DNA of 64,000 nt, taken from contig PAPN01000049.1 of assembly GCA_002708925.1 (NCBI GenBank), positions 1 through 64,000 of the forward strand. Direction: 5' to 3'. A program made the position numbers and the translations under genes. How positions within the stretch are numbered: the stretch's first letter is position 1; every line of letters starts with the position of its first letter. Source of the DNA: Paracoccaceae bacterium (lineage in GTDB: Bacteria; Pseudomonadota; Alphaproteobacteria; Rhodobacterales; Rhodobacteraceae). Under the pieces are notes generated by a model that was given only the letters and a program-made list of their open reading frames with translations, was not told where the DNA came from and did no database searches. This document shows, piece by piece, positions 12,323-24,757 of the stretch.

Positions 12323-12688
12323 TCAGGTGCGATCCTTCGGATGATTCACCCCGTCCGCCCAGGGAATCTCGCCCAGATCGCGCGGGTTCACCCCTTCGAT
12401 CGCGGCGGCATTCACCCCGTATTCATTCGGGTTCGAGCGCCGCTGATGATGCGTGTAAATCCCGCAGACCGAGCAAAAATAGTGTTTCGCCGTCCTGGTG
12501 CCCCATTGATACAGGGTCAGCTTATCCGCGCCGCGTATGATCTCGATCCCGTCCAGGGGTGCGGACACGGCAATCGCTCCGCGCCGGCGACAGAAGGAAC
12601 AATCGCAGCGCCGCGCGGTGTTGAAACCGTCGCTTAGCTGCACGGACAATTCGACAGCGCCACAATGGCAGGTCAGTTTATGGGTCAT
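12323..12688 (-). CDS. GFA / CENP-V domain protein
   Basis: A 121-residue zinc-binding protein of the glutathione-dependent formaldehyde-activating (GFA) fold. Visible zinc ligands are CHCGAVE (Cys8, Cys10), CDCSFCRRRG and CSVCGIYTHH. Substrate is unknown; most small GFA proteins are not true formaldehyde-activating enzymes. Its ATG overlaps the stop of the rhomboid gene by 4 nt (ATGA), so it is translated in the same operon. Confidence 0.9.
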   Translation of the reverse strand: MTHKLTCHCGAVELSVQLSDGFNTARRCDCSFCRRRGAIAVSAPLDGIEIIRGADKLTLYQWGTRTAKHYFCSVCGIYTHHQRRSNPNEYGVNAAAIEGVNPRDLGEIPWADGVNHPKDRT

Positions 12689-13434
12689 TTACGGCGCCTT
12701 TTCACAGTCGGGATTGAGGAACGGGACAAAGGATAGCTGCTCTCGGGATTGGGGGGCTGGCCATGGGTGCGTTCCCAAAACCCCACACCGCCCTGACGCA
12801 TCCAATAGGGCAAAGCCAGCACGAATCCGGCCAGAAACCCACCCGCATGAGCCCAATAGGCCACGCCTCCGCCGCTGGCATCCACGGTACTGCCCGAAAA
12901 CAGTTGCAGCACGAACCACACCCCCAGCATCGCCCAGGCCGGCACCGGAAAGATGCGGAAAAACACAAAGAAAATGAACAAGATGTCGATCCGCGCCTTA
13001 GGAAACAGCAACAGATAGCCCCCCATCACCCCGGCAATCGCCCCCGAGGCCCCCACCGTCGGGATCACCGAGCCCGGATCGGCCGCCACATGCGCAAAGG
13101 CCGCCGCCAACCCCGAGGCCAGATAGAACAGCAAGAACCCGACATGGCCAAAGGCGTCCTCCATATTGTCGCCAAAGATCCATAAAAACAGCATGTTACC
13201 GGCCAGATGCATCCAGCCTCCGTGCATGAACATGGTGGTGAACAGGGTCTCATACCCCGCCCCCTGAGCGACACGGGCGGGGATCAGGCTCCAGTCAAAA
13301 AAGAACGCGTTCAGCGCACGCGGATCATCGAACAGCTCCACGTAGCTTAGAAACACCGCCACATTCACCGCAATCAGCGCATAGGTGACAAAGGGCGTGC
13401 GGTCGGACGGGTTGTGATCTCGGATCGGAAACAT
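12685..13434 (-). CDS. Rhomboid-family intramembrane serine protease
   Basis: 249 residues with at least six hydrophobic helices. The catalytic Ser is S130 in GASGAIAG and the catalytic His is H196 in AYWAHAGGF; HLAGN (Asn80) provides the usual oxyanion-hole side chain. The N-terminal MFPIRDHNPSDRTPFVTYALI is the common start of alphaproteobacterial rhomboids. It cleaves transmembrane substrates in the inner membrane; its target is unknown. First gene of the rhomboid-GFA pair. Confidence 0.93.
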   Translation of the reverse strand: MFPIRDHNPSDRTPFVTYALIAVNVAVFLSYVELFDDPRALNAFFFDWSLIPARVAQGAGYETLFTTMFMHGGWMHLAGNMLFLWIFGDNMEDAFGHVGFLLFYLASGLAAAFAHVAADPGSVIPTVGASGAIAGVMGGYLLLFPKARIDILFIFFVFFRIFPVPAWAMLGVWFVLQLFSGSTVDASGGGVAYWAHAGGFLAGFVLALPYWMRQGGVGFWERTHGQPPNPESSYPLSRSSIPTVKRRRK

Positions 13435-13514
13435 GGGCGCACGATCCGGCCTTTTGCCGGTAAGGTCAAGTAACCGTGACTTGACCCGCCCGCGCGATGC
13501 GTCACCATTGGGCC

Positions 13515-14087
13515 ATGCTGAAACCTTGGATCATAGCGCTGACACTGGCCGGATCACAGGCGGTATCGCAGGGTGAATTGCAGGATGAATTTCAGGCCGC
13601 AACCTGCCCTGCGCCGCCCGATCACTCCGCCGCGCTGAATCGCCTGCTGGATCGGGTCCAGGCGGCCGGATCAGAATCCCAGGCCCGGCAGATTTCGGAT
13701 CAGATGTGGGCGCTGTGGGCCAGCGCCCCCGATGAGATCGCCCAAGAGATCCTGAACGCCGGCATGGCCAAACGCGCAAGCTATGACCTGCTGGGCGCCC
13801 GGCAGGCGTTCGACCGGCTGATCGCCTACTGCCCCGACTATGCCGAGGGCTATAACCAGCGCGCCTTTGTCAATTTCATCCGCCAGGATTACAGCGCCTC
13901 TCTGACCGATCTGGAGCGCACTCTGGCCCTGTCGCCCCGGCACCTGGGCGCGATGACGGGCAAGGCTTTGGCGTTGATGGGGCTGGGCCGCATGGACGAG
14001 GGCCAGCAGGTGCTGCGCGCCGCGCTGGCACTGAACCCCTGGCTGCCCGAACGCCACCTGCTGACCCCCGGCGGCGAAGAGCTCTGA
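13515..14087 (+). CDS. TPR-repeat periplasmic protein
   Basis: 190 residues. A signal peptide-like N terminus (MLKPWIIALTLAGSQAVSQ) suggests export. Tetratricopeptide-like helices cover about residues 85-180 (NQRAFVNFIRQDYSASLTDLERTLALSPRHLGAMTGKALA spans two of them). The ATG at 13515 is preferred over 13497 because it places the signal peptide correctly. Role unknown; probably a protein-protein interaction scaffold. It is followed within 70 nt by the TPP riboswitch. Confidence 0.78.
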   Translation: MLKPWIIALTLAGSQAVSQGELQDEFQAATCPAPPDHSAALNRLLDRVQAAGSESQARQISDQMWALWASAPDEIAQEILNAGMAKRASYDLLGARQAFDRLIAYCPDYAEGYNQRAFVNFIRQDYSASLTDLERTLALSPRHLGAMTGKALALMGLGRMDEGQQVLRAALALNPWLPERHLLTPGGEEL

Positions 14088-14156
14088 GCCCCGAAAATCC
14101 GGCCATCTGAAATTTTCCGGTGACGCGCGCGCCGTCATGCTGTATGCCCATCGCAT

Positions 14157-14237
14157 CTGTTGGGGTGCCCCGAGGGGCTGAGATGCAATCCGCAAACCCA
14201 TTGAACCTGAACCGGTTAGGACCGGCGGAGGGAACAG
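14157..14237 (+). promoter_or_regulatory. TPP riboswitch (Thi-box)
   Basis: The conserved aptamer pieces are all present in order: GGGGTGCC, GGGCTGAGATG, then ACCCATTGAACCTGAACC, GGTTAGGACCGGCGGAGGGAACA. The closing stem P1 is CTGTT (14157-14161) with AACAG (14233-14237). It lies upstream of thiD and should shut down the whole operon when thiamine diphosphate is bound. Confidence 0.97.
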
Positions 14238-14238
14238 A

Positions 14239-14275
14239 CTTTGGGATTTTGCACGCCCAAAGACCCGTTTCTTTC
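14239..14275 (+). terminator. Candidate riboswitch expression-platform hairpin
   Basis: Just after the aptamer, CTTTGGG (14239-14245) and CCCAAAG (14256-14262) form a perfect 7-bp stem, followed by a pyrimidine-rich stretch containing GTTTCTTTCT. This fits an attenuator-type terminator, though the T-tract is interrupted. Alternatively the switch may act by hiding the AAAGGAAG ribosome site of thiD at 14296-14303. Confidence 0.5.
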
Positions 14276-17633: not shown

Positions 17634-18634
17634 CCCGTTATGCCCGTCAGATCGCCGTGCCGGCCCTTGGCCCGGCAGGGCAGGCCCGTCTGGCCCAGGC
17701 GCATGTTCTGGTGATCGGTGCCGGAGGGCTGGCCGCGCCCGTGCTGCAATATCTGGTGGGCGCGGGCGTGGGGGCGATCCGCCTGGTCGATCCAGACCGG
17801 GTGGAGCTAAGCAACCTGCATCGCCAGACCCTGTTCCGCCACACCGACATCGGGACATCCAAGGCCCAGGCCGCCTCCGCCCATATGCAGGCGCTGAACC
17901 CGGACTGCCGGATCACCCCGCATCAAACGGCCTTTGACCCCGGCAACGGGGCCGCATTGCTAGAGGACATCACCCTGGTGCTGGATTGCGCCGACAGTTT
18001 CGCCGCCAGCTATGTGGCCAGCGATCTGTGCCTGCGCCTTGGCCTGCCGTTGATCAGTGCCTCGGTGGTCGGCACTCAGGGGTATGCGGGCGGTTTTTGC
18101 GCCGGTGCCCCCGGTCTGCGCGCCGTGTTCCCCGACCTGCCCAACCGGCTGGGCAGCTGCGCCGAAGATGGCGTTCTTGGCCCCTCGGTCGGGGTGATCG
18201 GCGCGCTACAGGCGCAGATGGCCGTGGCGGTTGTGGCCGGGATCTGCCCCAGCCCGCTGGGCCAGCTGCTCAGCTATGACGCGCTGAATTTCCGCTTTGG
18301 GGGGTTCCGTTTCGATGGCGCGCCCGACCCGCAGGACGGCCACCATTTCATCGCCCCTTGTGAGATCCGGCAGACCGACAGCGTGATCGACCTGCGCGCA
18401 GCAGAAGAGCCCGGCCCCGCCCTGCCCGGCGCCACCCGGCTGACTGTCGCCGATTTCGAAACCCGCCCCCCCGTGCCAGACGCGCCCCGCGTGGTGCTGG
18501 CCTGCCGCTCCGGCCTGCGCGCCTGGCAGGCGGCCGACCATCTGCGCCGCGTCAGCCGCACCGATATCGTTCTGATCGCCCTGGGCGCGCAGAGCCACCC
18601 CACCCCAAAGACCCCACGAAAGGACTCTCTATGA
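17630..18634 (+). CDS. thiF: ThiF/MoeB-type adenylyltransferase with C-terminal rhodanese domain
   Basis: 334 residues. The N-terminal two thirds form an E1-like domain: [19 protein letters not shown] (nucleotide loop), [13 protein letters not shown], and [11 protein letters not shown]. The last third is rhodanese-like with active-site loop CRSGLRAW. It should adenylate the ThiS C terminus and pass on sulfur. The usual zinc-holding CxxC pairs of MoeB/ThiF are not seen (LRAVFPDLP stands where the first pair lies). The start at 17630 overlaps thiE; the open frame reaching to 17429 upstream is a shadow. Confidence 0.88.
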
Positions 18635-19566
18635 AACACCTTGCCCTTGCTGCCGCGTTGCTGACGGCCACCCCGGCCATGGCGGCCGATAAAATGACTC
18701 TGCTGTTGGATTGGTTCGTCAATCCCGATCACGGGCCGATCATCGTTGCCCAGGAAAAAGGGTTCTTTGCGGACCAAGGGCTTGAGGTGGAGATCATCGC
18801 GCCGGCCGATCCCTCGGACCCGCCCAAACTGGTGGCGGCGGGCAAGGCCGAGCTGGCGATCTCCTACCAGCCGCAGCTGCATCTGCAAGTCGCCCAGGGC
18901 CTGCCGCTGACCCGCGTCGGCACCCTGGTGGCCACACCGCTGAACTGCCTGCTGGTGCTGAAGGACGGCCTGATCAAGGACATCGCAGACCTGAAGGGCG
19001 GTAAGATCGGCTATTCCGTTGCCGGTGTCGAAGAGGCCCTGCTGACCGCCATTCTGGGCAAACACGGGCTAAGCGTGGACGATATCGAACTGGTCAATGT
19101 GAACTGGTCTCTGTCGCCCTCGCTGATGTCGGGCCAGGTGGATGCCGTGCTGGGCGCCTACCGCAATTTCGAACTGAACCAGATGGAAATCGAAGGCGTT
19201 GAGGGCAAGTGTTTCTACGTCGAAGAGGAAGGCGTGCCCACCTATGACGAGCTGATCTACGTCGCCAACACCGATCAGATGGACGCCGACAAACTGACCC
19301 GTTTCCTGCGCGCGACGGAACTGGCGACGCAGTATATCGTCAACCATCCGCAAGAAAGCTGGCAGATCTTCTCGGGCACCTCGGCCGAATTGCAGGACCA
19401 GTTGAATGAAATGGCCTGGGCCGACACGCTGCCGCGTTTTGCGCTGCGTCCCGCGGCGCTGGATTCGGCCCGCTATGCCCGCTTTGAAAGCTTTCTGGCC
19501 AAGGCCGGGCTGATCGAGGGCACCCGCCCTGTCTCGGATCTGGCGATCGAGCTGAACACCCAATGA
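18631..19566 (+). CDS. thiY: ABC transporter substrate-binding protein for HMP precursor (ThiY)
   Basis: 311 residues. It starts with a Sec signal peptide ([18 protein letters not shown]) and then the NMT1/THI5-like fold: [33 protein letters not shown] and [14 protein letters not shown]. ThiY proteins bind N-formyl-aminomethyl pyrimidine, a thiamine breakdown product, in the periplasm. Its partners thiZ and thiX lie just downstream, interleaved with two tenA-type genes. Overlaps thiF by 4 nt. Confidence 0.92.
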
Positions 19567-20234
19567 GCTATGGCAAAACATTCGCGCTCTGGCGCGCGGC
19601 GGCGGGCCTGGAATGGCCCGCCTATACCGAACATGCGTTCGTAAAGGGGCTGGCCGATGGCAGCCTGCCCCGCGCAGCGTTTTTGCACTATCTGGTGCAG
19701 GATTACGTGTTCCTGATCCACTTTTCCCGCGCCTGGGCACTGGCTGTCACCAAGGCCGAAACCATCGAGGAAATGCGCCTGTGCGCGGGCACGGTGAATG
19801 CGCTGATCGACGATGAAATGTCCCTGCATGTGCAGCTGTGCGCCAAAGCCGGAATTTCCGAGACCCAGCTGTTTGCCGCCACCGAGCGGACCGAGAACCT
19901 GGCCTATACCCGCTATGTTCTGGACGCCGGCCACAGCGGGGATTTCCTGGATCTGATGGCCGCGCTGGCCCCTTGCGTGATGGGCTATGGCGAGATCGGC
20001 GCGCGGCTTCTGGCCGATCGCAGCTCGGACCTCTATGCCGAGTGGATCCAGACCTATGGCGGCCCCGAGTACCAATCGGTCTGTGCCGATGTGGGCGCGC
20101 TGATCGACGGGGCTGTGGCGCTTCGGATCGGGGAAACCCCGGCGCAATCGCCCCGGTGGCAGGCCCTGTGCGACCGTTTCACCATGGCCACCCGGCTTGA
20201 GGTCGGGTTCTGGGATATGGGGCTGCGCCCGTGA
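19563..20234 (+). CDS. tenA: Aminopyrimidine aminohydrolase, TenA with catalytic Cys
   Basis: 223 residues, all helical. The N-terminal WPAYTEHAFVKGLADGSLPRAAFLHYLVQDY block is typical, and ALAPCVMGYGEIG carries the catalytic Cys that marks the TenA_C class, which turns aminomethyl-HMP into HMP. The C-terminal ATRLEVGFWDMG is the usual end. It overlaps thiY and thiZ by 4 nt each. Confidence 0.93.
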   Translation: MSYGKTFALWRAAAGLEWPAYTEHAFVKGLADGSLPRAAFLHYLVQDYVFLIHFSRAWALAVTKAETIEEMRLCAGTVNALIDDEMSLHVQLCAKAGISETQLFAATERTENLAYTRYVLDAGHSGDFLDLMAALAPCVMGYGEIGARLLADRSSDLYAEWIQTYGGPEYQSVCADVGALIDGAVALRIGETPAQSPRWQALCDRFTMATRLEVGFWDMGLRP

Positions 20235-20989
20235 CATCTGTGCCCGTGACATCTGCGCCCGATCTGACCCTGCGCGGCGATGCCTTTTACGGCAGTAGCC
20301 CGGTGTTTCAGAACGCCGATCTACACGTGCCCGCCGGGCAATGGACCTGCTTGCTGGGCGGCTCGGGCGTGGGGAAATCCACGGTGTTGAACCTGTTTGC
20401 CGGGCTGGCCAGCGGGGTCACGTTTCGCGGAACCTGCGCGGCCAGCGATGGCCCGCTGGCGGGGCGGGTGGCGCTGATGGCGCAGGACGATCTGCTGCTG
20501 CCCTGGCGCGATGTGGCCGCGAATGTCGGGCTGGGCGCGTCCCTGCGTGGGCACGCGCCCGATCACGCGCGCATCCTGCGGGTGCTGGAGCGGGTCGGGC
20601 TGGCAGACAAGGCCACGGCCAAGCCCGCACAGCTGTCGGGCGGGCAGCGCCAGCGCGTCGCCCTGGCCCGCACCTTGATCGAGGACCGCCCCATCGTGCT
20701 GCTGGACGAGCCTTTCTCGGCGCTGGACGCGCGCACCCGCGCACAGATGCAGGATTTGGCCGCCGAATTGCTGCACGGACGCACCGTCTTGCTGGTCACT
20801 CACGACCCGGCCGAGGCCGCGCGCCTGGGTCATGTCATCACCCTGATGACCGCTGGCGGGCTCAGCACCGTCGCTCCGCCCGCCGGCCCCGTCCCCCGGC
20901 CCTTTGACGCGCCCGATGTGCTGCGCGTTCAGGCCACGCTTCTTACCCTGTTACGAGAGGACAGCTCATGCGACCAACCGACCTACTAA
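20231..20989 (+). CDS. thiZ: ABC transporter ATP-binding protein (ThiZ)
   Basis: 252 residues, GTG start overlapping the tenA stop (GTGA). Walker A is GGSGVGKST, the Q-loop region MAQDDLLLPW, the signature LSGGQRQRV and Walker B IVLLDEPFSALD. It belongs to the nitrate/sulfonate/taurine-like importer ATPases. With ThiY and ThiX it powers uptake of a pyrimidine thiamine precursor. Its last 22 nt overlap the following tenA-like gene. Confidence 0.92.
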   Translation: MTSVPVTSAPDLTLRGDAFYGSSPVFQNADLHVPAGQWTCLLGGSGVGKSTVLNLFAGLASGVTFRGTCAASDGPLAGRVALMAQDDLLLPWRDVAANVGLGASLRGHAPDHARILRVLERVGLADKATAKPAQLSGGQRQRVALARTLIEDRPIVLLDEPFSALDARTRAQMQDLAAELLHGRTVLLVTHDPAEAARLGHVITLMTAGGLSTVAPPAGPVPRPFDAPDVLRVQATLLTLLREDSSCDQPTY

Positions 20990-21621
20990 GGCAACAATCC
21001 CAAGCCGACTGGACCGCCGCCACCACGCATGAATTTACCGATGCTTTGGGCGCGGGCACCTTGCCGCCGGAAAAAATGGCCGGCTATCTGCAACAGGATT
21101 ACCTGTTTGTGGATGGGTTTGTGCGGCTGCTGGCCTCGGCTATTGCCCATGCGCCCACCCTGGCCGATGGCGTGCCCGCCGCGCAGTTTCTGGGCCTGGT
21201 GACAAGCGACGAAAACACCTATTTCCTGCGCAGCCTTGACGCGCTGGGATACCCTGCACAGGCAGAGCCGGCCCCGCAAACCCTTGCATTCCAAGAGCTT
21301 ATGACAATGGCCCGCCACTCGGGCCGGTACGAGCTGATGCTGGCTGTGCTGGTGGTTGCCGAATGGGTGTATCTGGACTGGGCCGCCCCGATGGAACAAC
21401 GCGCCGCGGATCTGCCGTTTTGGCTGGGCGAGTGGATCACCCTGCATTCCGGCCCCGGTTTCGAAGGGGTGGTTGCCTATTTGCGCGGACAGTTGGATCA
21501 GATCTGGCCGCACCTAGCCCCCTCCGCGCAAGACGACGTGCAACGGCTGTTTGCGCAGACCGTCGCGGCCGAGCGCGCGTTCTTTGATGCCGCCTGGGCC
21601 GGCTTCGCGGTGGCCACATGA
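20968..21621 (+). CDS. Second TenA-family protein without the catalytic Cys
   Basis: 217 residues with the TenA helical fold: MAGYLQQDYLFVDGFVRLLA and VAEWVYLDWAAPM are clear family segments. The position of the Cys found in the first TenA is not a Cys here (LAVLVVAEWVYLDW), and Glu-rich surroundings fit the TenA_E class, which is thought to deformylate or process formylaminomethyl-pyrimidine before TenA_C acts. Role as an upstream salvage enzyme is inferred from this and from the operon. Confidence 0.82.
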   Translation: MRPTDLLRQQSQADWTAATTHEFTDALGAGTLPPEKMAGYLQQDYLFVDGFVRLLASAIAHAPTLADGVPAAQFLGLVTSDENTYFLRSLDALGYPAQAEPAPQTLAFQELMTMARHSGRYELMLAVLVVAEWVYLDWAAPMEQRAADLPFWLGEWITLHSGPGFEGVVAYLRGQLDQIWPHLAPSAQDDVQRLFAQTVAAERAFFDAAWAGFAVAT

Positions 21622-22373
21622 AAATCACCCAGCTAAAGGCCTGGCAGGCTGGGCTGGCCTCGGCCGGGCTGGCGTTGCTGATCTGGCAACTGGTGGTCTG
21701 GCTGGGGGATATGCCTCGTTTTATCCTGCCCGGCCCGGCCCTGGTGGCCGAGACCCTGTGGACCAGCCGCGCGCTGATCGCCCAGCACGCAGCCATCACC
21801 CTGTCCGAGGTTCTGCTGGGCCTGACCCTGGGCGCCATCCTGGGCGGGATAACGGCGATCGGTCTGGCGGTTTCACCGGTGGCGCGGGCCCTGATCCGCC
21901 CGATGCTGGTGTTCAGCCAGGCGGTGCCGGTGTTCGCGCTGGCCCCGTTGCTGACACTGTGGTTTGGCTATGGGCTGTGGTCCAAGGTGCTGATGGCGCT
22001 GATCATCATCTATTTCCCGGTTACCTCATCGTTTTTCGATGCGTTGATGCGGCCTCATCCCGGCTGGCTGGGTCTGGGGCAGGTCATGGGCGGCACCCCG
22101 GCGCGGCTGCTGTGGCATATCCGGATTCCGGCGGCCCTGCCGGGGCTGGCCTCGGGGTTGCGGCTGGCGGCGGTCTATGCCCCCATCGGCGCGATCATCG
22201 GCGAATGGGTGGGCGCCAGCAAAGGCCTGGGCTATCTGATGCTGCTGGCCAACGGACGCGCGAAAATCGACCTGATGTTTGCGGCCTTGCTGGTGCTGGC
22301 GGTGATGACAGTGGCCCTGCACGCAGCCGTGAACGCCCTGGCGCGCCGGTTTCTGGATGGCCCGGACGCGTGA
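21618..22373 (+). CDS. thiX: ABC transporter permease (ThiX)
   Basis: 251 residues with about six membrane helices and the BPD-transporter EAA-like loop (LGLGQVMGGTPARLLWHIRIPAALPGLASG split over the coupling helix). It starts 4 nt inside the previous tenA-like gene. With ThiY and ThiZ it forms the inner-membrane importer. Last gene of the riboswitch operon. Confidence 0.93.
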   Translation: MKITQLKAWQAGLASAGLALLIWQLVVWLGDMPRFILPGPALVAETLWTSRALIAQHAAITLSEVLLGLTLGAILGGITAIGLAVSPVARALIRPMLVFSQAVPVFALAPLLTLWFGYGLWSKVLMALIIIYFPVTSSFFDALMRPHPGWLGLGQVMGGTPARLLWHIRIPAALPGLASGLRLAAVYAPIGAIIGEWVGASKGLGYLMLLANGRAKIDLMFAALLVLAVMTVALHAAVNALARRFLDGPDA

Positions 22374-22438: not shown

Positions 22439-22727
22439 TGGTACGGGCGGGGGGACTTGAACCCCCACGGGCATATGCCCCACGGATTTTCATACCATCT
22501 ACGGTTTTCACCGCCGCCCGGATGGGCGTTTGTGGTCTGGACTATCCCTTCACCCTAGCCGAAGCCTTAGGCGCTGCCCGTCTAGTCTCTACACCTTCCC
22601 CTTTCGGGGCTTGGCTCGGGATTGCCATTTCACAGGTTTCCCCGAATTTGAGCAGTTCTACACCAGAGTTTCCAACCGGCGCACTCAATCTATAAGTCCG
22701 ATGCGTCTACCATTCCGCCACGCCCGC
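22439..22727 (-). tRNA. tRNA-Leu(UAA), split by a group I intron
   Basis: Read on the minus strand, the 5' exon (22727-22694, 34 nt) begins GCGGGCGTGGCGGAATGG and ends ...GGACTT at U34. The 3' exon (22490-22439) begins AAAATCCG, has a long variable arm (GGGGCATATGCCC), a T arm GGGGGTTCAAGTCCCCC, acceptor CGCCCGT, discriminator A and an encoded CCA. Joined exons give loop CTTAAAA, anticodon UAA. The G1-U72 wobble is also found in E. coli tRNA-Leu(UAA). Pair 27-43 is U-U, a small oddity. Confidence 0.93.
22491..22693 (-). ncRNA. Group I self-splicing intron in tRNA-Leu anticodon loop
   Basis: 203 nt between U34 and A35. The 5' exon ACTT pairs with GAGT shortly inside the intron (P1 with a U-G wobble at the splice site). 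The core elements are recognisable: AAATTCGGGGAAACCT and GGCAATCCCGAGCCAAGCC (P4-P6), GAGACTAGACGGG and GGGATAGTCC (P7 strands), and a terminal G. These match the layout of the cyanobacterial/plastid tRNA-Leu intron. No homing endonuclease frame is present. Confidence 0.92.
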
Positions 22728-22826
22728 ACGAAGCCTTTCTATAGTCTGCGCTGATCCTGAGGCCAAGCCATTTATTCGCCCCCGAACGCAACGCGAGGTT
22801 GCGATGCGCCGGATCCCGCCGGGCCG

Positions 22827-23621
22827 TCAGTCGCGGCTGCGGATCACCTTGGCGAAACGGTCAAAGATGTCCCCATTGGCGACGATGATGTCGCCGTGCT
22901 CCAGCGGGTCATGGCCCTCGCGGATGGGGCCCAGCATGCCGCCTGCCTCGGTTACGATCAGCGTGCCGGCGGCGATGTCCCAGATGTTCAGCTCGCGTTC
23001 CCAATAGCCATCATAGCGCCCCGCGGCGACATAGGCCAAATCCAGCGCGGCCGAGCCAAACCGGCGCACGCCCGCGCATTCGGGCATGATGCGCGCCAGA
23101 TCCTGCAAGGTGGCCGGAAGGGTGCGTTTGGCGGCAAAGGGAATGCCGGTGGCAAAGATCGCCTCGATCATCCGGTTGCGACCCGACACACGCAGACGGT
23201 TGGAATCGTTCAGCCAGGCGCCCATGCCCTTTTCGGCATAGAACATTTCATCCTTGGCCGCGTCATAGATCACGGCGGAAACGATCTGGCCCTTATGTTC
23301 CAGCGCGATCGAGATCGCCCAATGCGGCAGCCCGTGCAGGAAATTGGTGGTGCCGTCCAGCGGGTCCACGATCCAGCGGCGGGTGGGATCCTGGCCCGCG
23401 ATCTCGCCGCCCTCTTCGCCCAGCCAGCCATAGGTGGGACGCGCGCCCAGCAGCTCCTCTTTGAGGATGTTTTCCGCGGCGATGTCGGCCTTTGAAACGA
23501 AATCCCCCGCGCCCTTCATCGAGACCTGCAAATTCTCAACTTCGCGGAAATCCTTGACCAGCGAACGGCCCGCCTTGCGCGCGGCCTTGATCATGATGTT
23601 GAGATTTGCACTGCCTTGCAT
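22827..23621 (-). CDS. Inositol monophosphatase family protein
   Basis: 264 residues. Metal-binding motifs are GEEGGE (about 68-73), DPLDGTTNF (86-94) and WDIAAGTLIVTEAGG near the C terminus. These are the Li-sensitive phosphatase motifs shared by SuhB/IMPase. The ATG at 23621 follows an AGGAG ribosome site; an upstream extension of the frame has no similarity. It may hydrolyse inositol phosphate or similar sugar phosphates; SuhB-type roles in rRNA synthesis are also possible. Confidence 0.94.
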   Translation of the reverse strand: MQGSANLNIMIKAARKAGRSLVKDFREVENLQVSMKGAGDFVSKADIAAENILKEELLGARPTYGWLGEEGGEIAGQDPTRRWIVDPLDGTTNFLHGLPHWAISIALEHKGQIVSAVIYDAAKDEMFYAEKGMGAWLNDSNRLRVSGRNRMIEAIFATGIPFAAKRTLPATLQDLARIMPECAGVRRFGSAALDLAYVAAGRYDGYWERELNIWDIAAGTLIVTEAGGMLGPIREGHDPLEHGDIIVANGDIFDRFAKVIRSRD

Positions 23622-23767
23622 CGGTCGGCTCCTGATTGTCCAAGCCGCGCCTATAGCGCCCACGGCCCTGTTTGCCAAGGGATAAGACGGCAAAACCGCT
23701 TTGCCAACCGTCAAGCACGGGGATGCACCCCCTGCCCCCCGAAATTCCGGCCGATTTTCGGTAAATC

Positions 23768-24673
23768 TTACTGGCGTTGCAGCTTTACCGCCTCGGTCCG
23801 GGCCAGCCGGGTGAAATGGGCGAAATAAGGCCGCGTGGCATCGTCCTGTCGCACCGCCGCATAGAGCCTGCGCGTCAGCCCGCCCTTGGTCAGCGGGCGG
23901 GTGACGTAATCCGAGTTATACTTGACCTCGCGCACCACCCAATCGGGCATCACCGCCACCCCCCGGTTCGAGGCCACCAGCAGCAGGATCATCGCCGTCA
24001 GCTCAACCCGGCGGATATTGGCGGGCTCGACCCCGGCCGGTTTCAGCAGCATTTTGAACACATCCAGCCGCGAGCGATCCACCGGATAGGCAAACAGCGT
24101 CTCACCGCGGAAATCCTCGGCCTCTATATAGTCCTTCTGCGCCAGCGGATGCTGGGACGAGGCCACAAAAACGGGCGAATAATCGAACAGGGGCAGGAAT
24201 TCGACGCCCGGAATATCCTCGGGGTCCGAGGAAATCACCAGGTCCACCTCCTCCTTGGCCAGGGCGGGCAGCGCGTCAAAGGCCAGGTTCGGGCGGATGT
24301 CCACATCCACGTCGGGCCAGGCCTTGCGGAATTGTTCCAGCACCGGGAACAGCCATTCGAAACAGGCGTGGCATTCGATGGCGATATGCAGCCGCCCGGC
24401 CTTGCCGGTGACGATTCCCTTGAATTCTTCCTCCAGCGCGGCGATCTCGGGCAGGATTTTATCCGCCGCGCGCAGCAGCCGCATCCCCGCCGCCGACAGT
24501 TTCAACGGTTTCGAGCGCCGGATGAACAGCTCAACCCCGGTCTGATCCTCCAAGTGTTTGATCTGATGCGACAAAGCCGATTGCGTGATGTTCAACACAT
24601 CCGCAGCGCGCGCCATGCCCCCGGCCTCGTGGATTGCCTTGATCGTCCGCAAATGGCGGAATTCGATGTGCAT
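23768..24673 (-). CDS. metR: LysR-family regulator MetR
   Basis: 301 residues. The N-terminal winged HTH (FRHLRTIKAIHEAGGMARAA, then LNITQSALSHQIKHLE) and the effector domain (HIAIECHACFEWLFPVLEQFR) match MetR, the homocysteine-sensing activator of methionine genes. The divergent neighbour is metF, a classical MetR target. The ATG at 24673 is chosen because it starts the conserved MHIEFRHL; the frame extends upstream through the shared promoter. Confidence 0.94.
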   Translation of the reverse strand: MHIEFRHLRTIKAIHEAGGMARAADVLNITQSALSHQIKHLEDQTGVELFIRRSKPLKLSAAGMRLLRAADKILPEIAALEEEFKGIVTGKAGRLHIAIECHACFEWLFPVLEQFRKAWPDVDVDIRPNLAFDALPALAKEEVDLVISSDPEDIPGVEFLPLFDYSPVFVASSQHPLAQKDYIEAEDFRGETLFAYPVDRSRLDVFKMLLKPAGVEPANIRRVELTAMILLLVASNRGVAVMPDWVVREVKYNSDYVTRPLTKGGLTRRLYAAVRQDDATRPYFAHFTRLARTEAVKLQRQ

Positions 24674-24676
24674 ATG

Positions 24677-24720
24677 TGAGCGCGCCTCATGTTGGTGTTT
24701 AGTTTTATGAAGTTGTCTCA
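24677..24720. promoter_or_regulatory. Paired MetR-like operators between metR and metF
   Basis: Two 13-bp sites of form TGAR-N5-YTCA lie in the divergent gap: TGAGCGCGCCTCA (24677-24689, a perfect dyad) and TGAAGTTGTCTCA (24708-24720, one mismatch from TGAA-N5-TTCA). Their starts are 31 bp apart, about three helical turns, so both would lie on the same DNA face. This fits MetR autoregulation and metF activation. Confidence 0.65.
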
Positions 24721-24757
24721 CAAAGCGAAATCTGCGACAAGAGGAACCAACCTAAAT

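Follow-up and report, generated by a model that had tools for sequence, protein, structure and literature searches.

A tRNA-Leu(UAA) gene with an endonuclease-free group I intron, probably acquired as a unit within the Rhodobacteraceae

The tRNA-Leu introns of cyanobacteria are small and usually lack an endonuclease, and their point of insertion in tRNA-Leu(UAA) is after U34, as in the gene described here. The Azoarcus tRNA-Ile(CAU) intron, a group I intron of subgroup IC3 and about 200 nt long, interrupts a different tRNA at a different point, and Agrobacterium-type introns in tRNA-Arg(CCU) are known in Alphaproteobacteria. In a review, group I introns in tRNA genes are attributed to cyanobacteria and to a few alpha- and beta-proteobacteria, with tRNA-Leu(UAA) as the host of the cyanobacterial intron (PMC4033280). 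The same host gene is interrupted in the 64,000-nucleotide stretch of DNA analysed here, referred to as the window, although the host organism is alphaproteobacterial. The titles, abstract openings and passages searched, which cover the literature in part, yielded no report of tRNA-Leu introns from Rhodobacterales or from phages.

The tRNA-Leu(UAA) gene lies at 22439–22727 on the minus strand, as do all of its parts given below, and is composed of a 34-nt exon, a 203-nt intron and a 52-nt exon. The 5′ exon (22694–22727) ends ...GGACUU, with U34 at 22694, and the 3′ exon (22439–22490) starts AAAAUCC and has CCA encoded at its end; both were delimited from the sequence and with ARAGORN, which reads the joined exons as a tRNA-Leu(taa) of 86 nt with the intron inserted after U34. 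The resulting cloverleaf presents the UAA anticodon, with a single U–U mismatch at the top of the anticodon stem. Enclosed by the exons is the group I intron (22491–22693), whose terminal G is 22491 and which is supported by the covariance model RF00028 and by covariation over 59 introns. No sense-strand open reading frame of 60 or more amino acids within the intron appears in the list of reading frames, which agrees with the preliminary description in leaving it free of an endonuclease frame; two frames listed there, of 85 and 74 amino acids, are on the plus (antisense) strand. Upstream of the gene are promoter-like boxes, TTGGCC (22766–22761) and CTATAG (22744–22739), recognized by eye on the minus strand (22739–22766) and 16 nt apart, and similar boxes precede the gene, again by eye, in the intron-bearing relatives shown. 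We confirm that the interrupted gene is real and that every one of its coordinates is right.

Left unspliced, the gene is not called by ARAGORN, which gives only a tRNA-Cys in the window, and with introns allowed it is miscalled as Tyr(ata); that such a gene is easily missed, as had been remarked, thus proves correct. Because a standard tRNA finder misses the gene, a genome of this kind would be scored as lacking a Leu(UAA) tRNA. By its own account, tRNAscan-SE 2.0 is not designed to detect group I introns in tRNA genes (PMC8450103).

The covariance search proposed in the preliminary description matches RF00028 (Intron_gpI) at 22703..22517 with 63.9 bits (E 6.8e-14, cut-off 50). No other group I match in the window passes the cut-off, and a search of all 61 contigs of the genome at E 0.001 gives none besides it. 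A tmRNA match over 22439–22574, at 16.4 bits against a cut-off of 47, overlaps the 3′ half of the tRNA and was rejected. For the analysis of covariation, helices P1–P9 were written for the window and their pairs counted across 59 introns, the window's among them, aligned with MAFFT. These were drawn from 161 extracted genes by taking introns of up to 235 nt whose similarity to those already chosen stayed below 0.88. Standard pairs occupy 91.6% of the 3378 cells of this alignment, and both sides have changed, in at least one row, in 38 of the 58 proposed pairs. None of 500 shuffles reached any of the five covariation measures, and sliding one partner by 1 to 3 columns, as a control, lowered pairing to 28–45%. 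The core helices are 85.9–100% paired overall, reaching 100% of cells in P3, P4, P5, P6 and P7, with changes on both sides in P3, P4, P5, P6, P6a, P7 and P8; the alignment counts thereby recover the pseudoknotted core of a group I intron, P3–P8 and P4–P6 with P7.

The first helix, P1 (22683–22697), pairs the exon bases ACUU (22697–22694) with 22686–22683, with an additional pair 22693/22687, and forms a U–G pair at the splice site. This U–G is present in 59 of 59 rows, which were chosen in part by a pattern containing ...CTT, and the G preceding the 3′ exon is invariant in rows chosen by a pattern with G before AAAAT; the window has both the U–G at its 5′ splice site and the terminal G at its 3′ end. 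P2 (22661–22681) is a hairpin with a GAAA loop that has its own pairs in the window and is weakly supported by the counts, because only 57.1% of its alignment cells pair. Enclosing the P4–P6 region is P3 (22574–22655; 22655–22650 with 22579–22574), in which four of six pairs have changed on both sides. P4 (22645–22640/22621–22616), P5 (22636–22635/22626–22625), P6 (22615–22613/22595–22593) and P6a (22609–22606/22601–22598) together span 22593–22645, with 94.9–100% of cells paired and both-side changes in one of six, one of two, one of three and four of four pairs, respectively.

P7 (22540–22587), the guanosine-binding helix, is formed by 22587–22583 with 22544–22540 and shows both-side changes in two of five pairs, and P8 (22551–22573), a hairpin with a UUCG loop, is 85.9% paired, with such changes in five of seven. 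Next to the terminal G is P9.0 (22494–22536; 22536–22533 with 22497–22494), 96.1% paired and changed on both sides in three of four pairs, one of which has gaps in 30 of 59 rows. Within 22502–22528 are P9 (22528–22524/22519–22515; 91.9% paired) and P9b (22513–22510/22505–22502; 100% paired), all nine pairs of which have changed on both sides. A P10 with the 3′ exon, for which 4 bp are possible in the window, pairs in 58.5% of cells with covariation absent and is unsupported. Folded on its own, the intron does not stand out in energy (z −1.72): 11 of 200 shuffled versions do as well or better. By its predicted fold, the intron is a well-formed group I intron of a known kind, and the earlier reading of a 203-nt intron with P1, P4–P6, P7 and a terminal G holds, as does that of exons joining to a complete tRNA-Leu with anticodon UAA.

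The likeness to the cyanobacterial intron claimed at the outset stands for the site, after U34 in both. The core is as close to Azoarcus: over hand-picked core blocks, 70 of 82 positions agree with the Azoarcus tRNA-Ile intron and 67 of 82 with the Anabaena tRNA-Leu intron. The Anabaena intron is also the sole cyanobacterial row of the intron tree, where it is on a very long branch (length 2). Introns of alphaproteobacterial tRNA-Arg(CCU) genes have the same core motifs and occur in 6 of 31 intron-bearing genomes of the family (host read by eye), but they are inserted after position 36 (by eye, locus L044) and form a separate starred clade on the intron tree. The introns in other Rhodobacteraceae tRNA-Leu(UAA) genes (L035, L036, L037/L243, L048, L033/L226 and L306) occupy the same site of the same gene, fall into one clade with that of the window and are 202–208 nt long, whereas their flanks and genomic positions differ from the window's.

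In the proposed mechanism, the precursor RNA would fold into the P1–P9 ribozyme, a guanosine bound in P7 would attack the U–G step at the 5′ splice site, and the freed U34 would attack after the terminal G, joining the exons into a tRNA predicted to read UUA. The structure and the splice sites are established by comparison, and we infer splicing, the guanosine step and expression. The source genome, probably of the Rhodobacteraceae in the wide sense (3.42 Mb in 61 contigs, with 5.0% contamination), has 34 tRNA matches, among them Leu genes UAG, CAA, CAG and GAG and none for Leu(UAA), and neither of two patterns matches an intronless Leu(UAA) copy in this 83.1%-complete assembly; a second copy may be missing from it, because it is only 83.1% complete. 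The codon UUA, read only by a UAA anticodon, is used rarely (3 times in the 2660 codons of ten nearby genes of the window), and the interrupted gene is probably needed by the cell.

Incompleteness and contamination at these levels give some room to the idea that the gene is a dead or dispensable copy, with an intact gene lying outside what was assembled, or a product of a binning or assembly error, which we regard as very improbable in view of the intact core helices of the window row, conserved in relatives, and of the gene's surroundings. Upstream of the gene and on the same strand are an inositol-monophosphatase (suhB-like) gene and a LysR gene, and on its other side is a thiamine transport block (NMT1, two TenA, ABC ATPase and permease; 18631–22373). 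A TPP riboswitch lies at 14151–14250, some 4 kb from that block. Region 22826–24721 matches all eight congeners searched at 73–84%, whole or in two pieces, so that the contig fits the genus and its contamination is disfavoured. At seven of the eight congener loci (the eighth, L066, ends early at a contig end), tRNA-Leu(UAA) adjoins a TPR-protein gene paired with a rhomboid gene. The homologues of this pair in the window are at 13485–14084 (TPR) and 12688–13530 (rhomboid); the window thus retains the TPR gene that marks the usual slot, no tRNA was found after it, which further argues against a dead copy, and the interrupted gene is 8.4 kb away on the opposite strand. The order of the rhomboid, TPR, tRNA-Leu, monophosphatase and lysR genes (12688–14084 and 22439–24721) differs from that in the congeners, and the tRNA-Leu gene is near breakpoints of the changed order.

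Among nine genomes of the genus, this is the only one with a group I match; the other eight all have an intact intronless tRNA-Leu(UAA) and no such match. The exons of the window are 100% identical to those of two intron-bearing genes, L036 (genome G397) and L306 (uncultured Rhodobacteraceae), and only 75–82% identical to the tRNA-Leu(UAA) genes of the congeners. Against 40 intronless genes (those of the eight congeners, 30 from the 282 pattern-matched family genomes and two more), identity is at most 88%. Beyond the gene, comparison by eye of the flanks with those of intron-bearing relatives finds only the promoter-like boxes alike. These exons, the trees described below and synteny indicate that the exons and the intron were most likely acquired together by horizontal transfer within the Rhodobacteraceae, and that the interrupted gene most likely stands in place of the intronless gene kept by the congeners. 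Taken as a whole, a tRNA-Leu(UAA) gene with an endonuclease-free self-splicing intron after U34, acquired as a unit within the family and replacing an intronless gene, is the reading that we hold with good, though not full, confidence. The suggestion of intron transfer in the preliminary description is accordingly retained in the form of whole-gene transfer within the Rhodobacteraceae.

On a 62-row exon tree, the intron label requires 5 changes, against a mean of 18.2 after shuffling (0 of 500 shuffles as low), and 19 of 22 intron-bearing rows group across genera, together with one intronless row. Clade tests were made on the exon tree over 83 columns, with the two rows identical to the window's left out. 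A clade of the window and all eight congeners is rejected (p-AU 0.0001), as is one of the window and seven congeners, all but L062 (p-AU 0.006). Those seven alone are not rejected (p-AU 0.21), but the own genes of all eight congeners are rejected as one clade (p-AU 0.001), which means that, even among intronless copies, the history of this tRNA gene departs from that of the genus. On a quick intron tree, the window's intron is in a 9-row clade from seven genomes (SH-aLRT 96), where the nearest intron is that of L037/L243, at 93%.

That the intron alone moved into the native gene, through homing or reverse splicing and with the short exons co-converted, appears unlikely and is rated below the vertical account considered next. 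It would accord with the failure to reject a clade of the window and L062 alone (p-AU 0.096) and with the Arg(UCU) genes L045 and L046, which by eye also carry introns after U34; moreover, homing may exist in this intron lineage, because related introns in phage contigs and in a Bacilli bin hold endonuclease frames. The window's intron, however, has no such frame, the position of the gene differs from that in the congeners, and the differences from the eight congeners extend over the whole 83-nt mature gene, beyond the anticodon arm, while that same mature gene equals two intron-bearing genes elsewhere.

The main rival to acquisition of the whole gene is lineage sorting of an older gene pair, in which an old intron-bearing lineage descended vertically beside an intronless one and was lost from most genomes, the congeners included; we judge it unlikely as well. 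The grouping of most intron-bearing exons across genera is what such descent would give, and seven intron-bearing genes (L035, L036, L040, L042, L043, L050 and L085) adjoin the TPR gene next to which the family usually has this tRNA. By pattern, both an intron-bearing and an intronless gene are held by two of the 21 Leu-intron genomes (G145 and G397), a coexistence that descent from a gene pair would call for but that is confined to these two. Against it, many parallel losses would be required, and identical exons are found in different genera with unlike flanks.

Within the family, a search with stricter filters, which may miss introns, gave a group I match in 31 of 394 genomes, 15 of them above the cut-off. 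Exons read by eye assign a host in 29 of the 31 genomes: 21 have the intron in Leu(UAA), six in Arg(CCU) and two in Arg(UCU); L040, read by eye as Leu, is absent from the trees. One Leu-intron genome has a second intron in Thr(UGU). Introns in other tRNAs of the family, again by eye, are at L041, L045, L046, L052, L053, L044, L049, L054, L056, L058 and L086, nine of them assigned to Thr(UGU), Arg(UCU) or Arg(CCU) genes. By pattern, 282 of the 394 genomes have an intronless Leu(UAA) gene, 21 have the Leu intron, two have both and 93 fall outside both counts. A pattern scan of named genomes found at least 118 genome stretches, of which 108 gave complete genes and ten were dropped before the counts. 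Among the matches listed, and in a pattern-selected sample that is not representative of all bacteria, these 108 genes comprise 88 from Pseudomonadota (84 Alphaproteobacteria, two Gammaproteobacteria and two without a class), nine from Acidobacteriota, five from Bacteroidota, four from Bacillota and two unplaced. ARAGORN accepts all but one of 131 joined non-viral genes. Genes for tRNA-Leu(UAA) with an intron are frequent in Alphaproteobacteria, and the view that such introns are sparse in proteobacteria has to be given up in the face of at least 118 contigs from one pattern, 84 of 108 extracted genes that are alphaproteobacterial and 21 of 394 family genomes.

The same pattern finds 45 contigs in IMG/VR, 30 of which give a tRNA-Leu(taa) when joined; the other 15 were dropped for want of an extractable complete gene, and the viral rows L349 and L369 are doubtful. 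The cyanobacterial-type pattern matches no viral contig. Phage-type loci are L099, L338–L381 (IMG/VR), L414 (LR756501) and L417 (LR756511). In ten open reading frames tested from five viral loci, L338, L366 and L380 show tail or virion genes, L360 matches a head protease weakly and L373 has a member of a DNA methyltransferase family. The phage record LR756501 (735 kb) has a complete gene with a 205-nt intron, and LR756511 (595 kb) has at least the 3′ half of the gene and an HNH-like frame, read by eye from the DNA. By eye, a few more viral tRNAs with a CTT end, L339, L350 and L354 among them, also seem to be interrupted. The other phage-collection matches listed, to Pelagibacter phage HTVC120P, Gordonia phage Daredevil and phage KM23-C739, cover 26–43% of the query, and no tRNA host is shown for any of the three; in the marine phages HTVC120P and KM23-C739 (L418 and L420), a stretch resembling the intron core lies between capsid-protein frames.

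Long versions of the intron, 677–861 nt in the six measured, also exist, and the long tRNA-Leu introns of L340, L353, L358, L234, L250, L290 and L417 have frames resembling HNH or LAGLIDADG endonucleases. Four of these frames were tested: that of L234, in a Bacilli bin, has an HNH match above the Pfam cut-off; that of L353 passes it with LAGLIDADG_2 (2.5e-26); that of L340 matches HNH families just below their cut-offs; and that of L358 has no family match. A 2014 review places all phage introns known to that date in protein-coding genes (PMC3984707), a statement against whose continued validity the phage tRNA-Leu intron sequences speak.

On plasmid pCTX-M3 (L412:6001-6301) is a complete tRNA-Leu(UAA) gene of the alphaproteobacterial type with a 213-nt intron, adjoining an AAA ATPase gene and aac(3)-IId. 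Copies covering at least 80% of this gene occur in 1257 of the 72,556 plasmid records searched; among complete E. coli genomes, 624 of 5426 have one. In the 25 plasmid and 15 E. coli matches listed, there is no annotation beneath the copies. Three further copies (L421, L422 and L423) have aac(3)-IId within 1.4 kb. The pCTX-M3 intron groups on the intron tree with L059, L060, Aureimonas and Phyllobacterium, near Rhodovulum, and there are hints of an alphaproteobacterial source for the aac(3)-IId resistance segment. Close to the trb genes of NZ_CP094524 (L413:4001-4290), a conjugative Bradyrhizobium plasmid, is another complete tRNA-Leu(UAA) gene with an intron, of 78.5% identity. It is conceivable, although we lean slightly against it, that intron-bearing tRNA-Leu(UAA) genes are a mobile class of their own, with the tRNA gene and its ribozyme carried together as a cassette by phages and plasmids, phage copies with HNH or LAGLIDADG frames as a homing-competent reservoir, and small endonuclease-free copies that displace native genes in bacteria, the host of the window included.

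The intron itself is of a known kind; what distinguishes it is the evidence for joint movement of the tRNA gene and its intron. As this type of gene is frequent in Alphaproteobacteria and is present in phage contigs and on resistance plasmids, two questions can now be tested: do tRNA genes travel together with their ribozymes, and do phages serve as a reservoir for the tRNA introns of bacteria?
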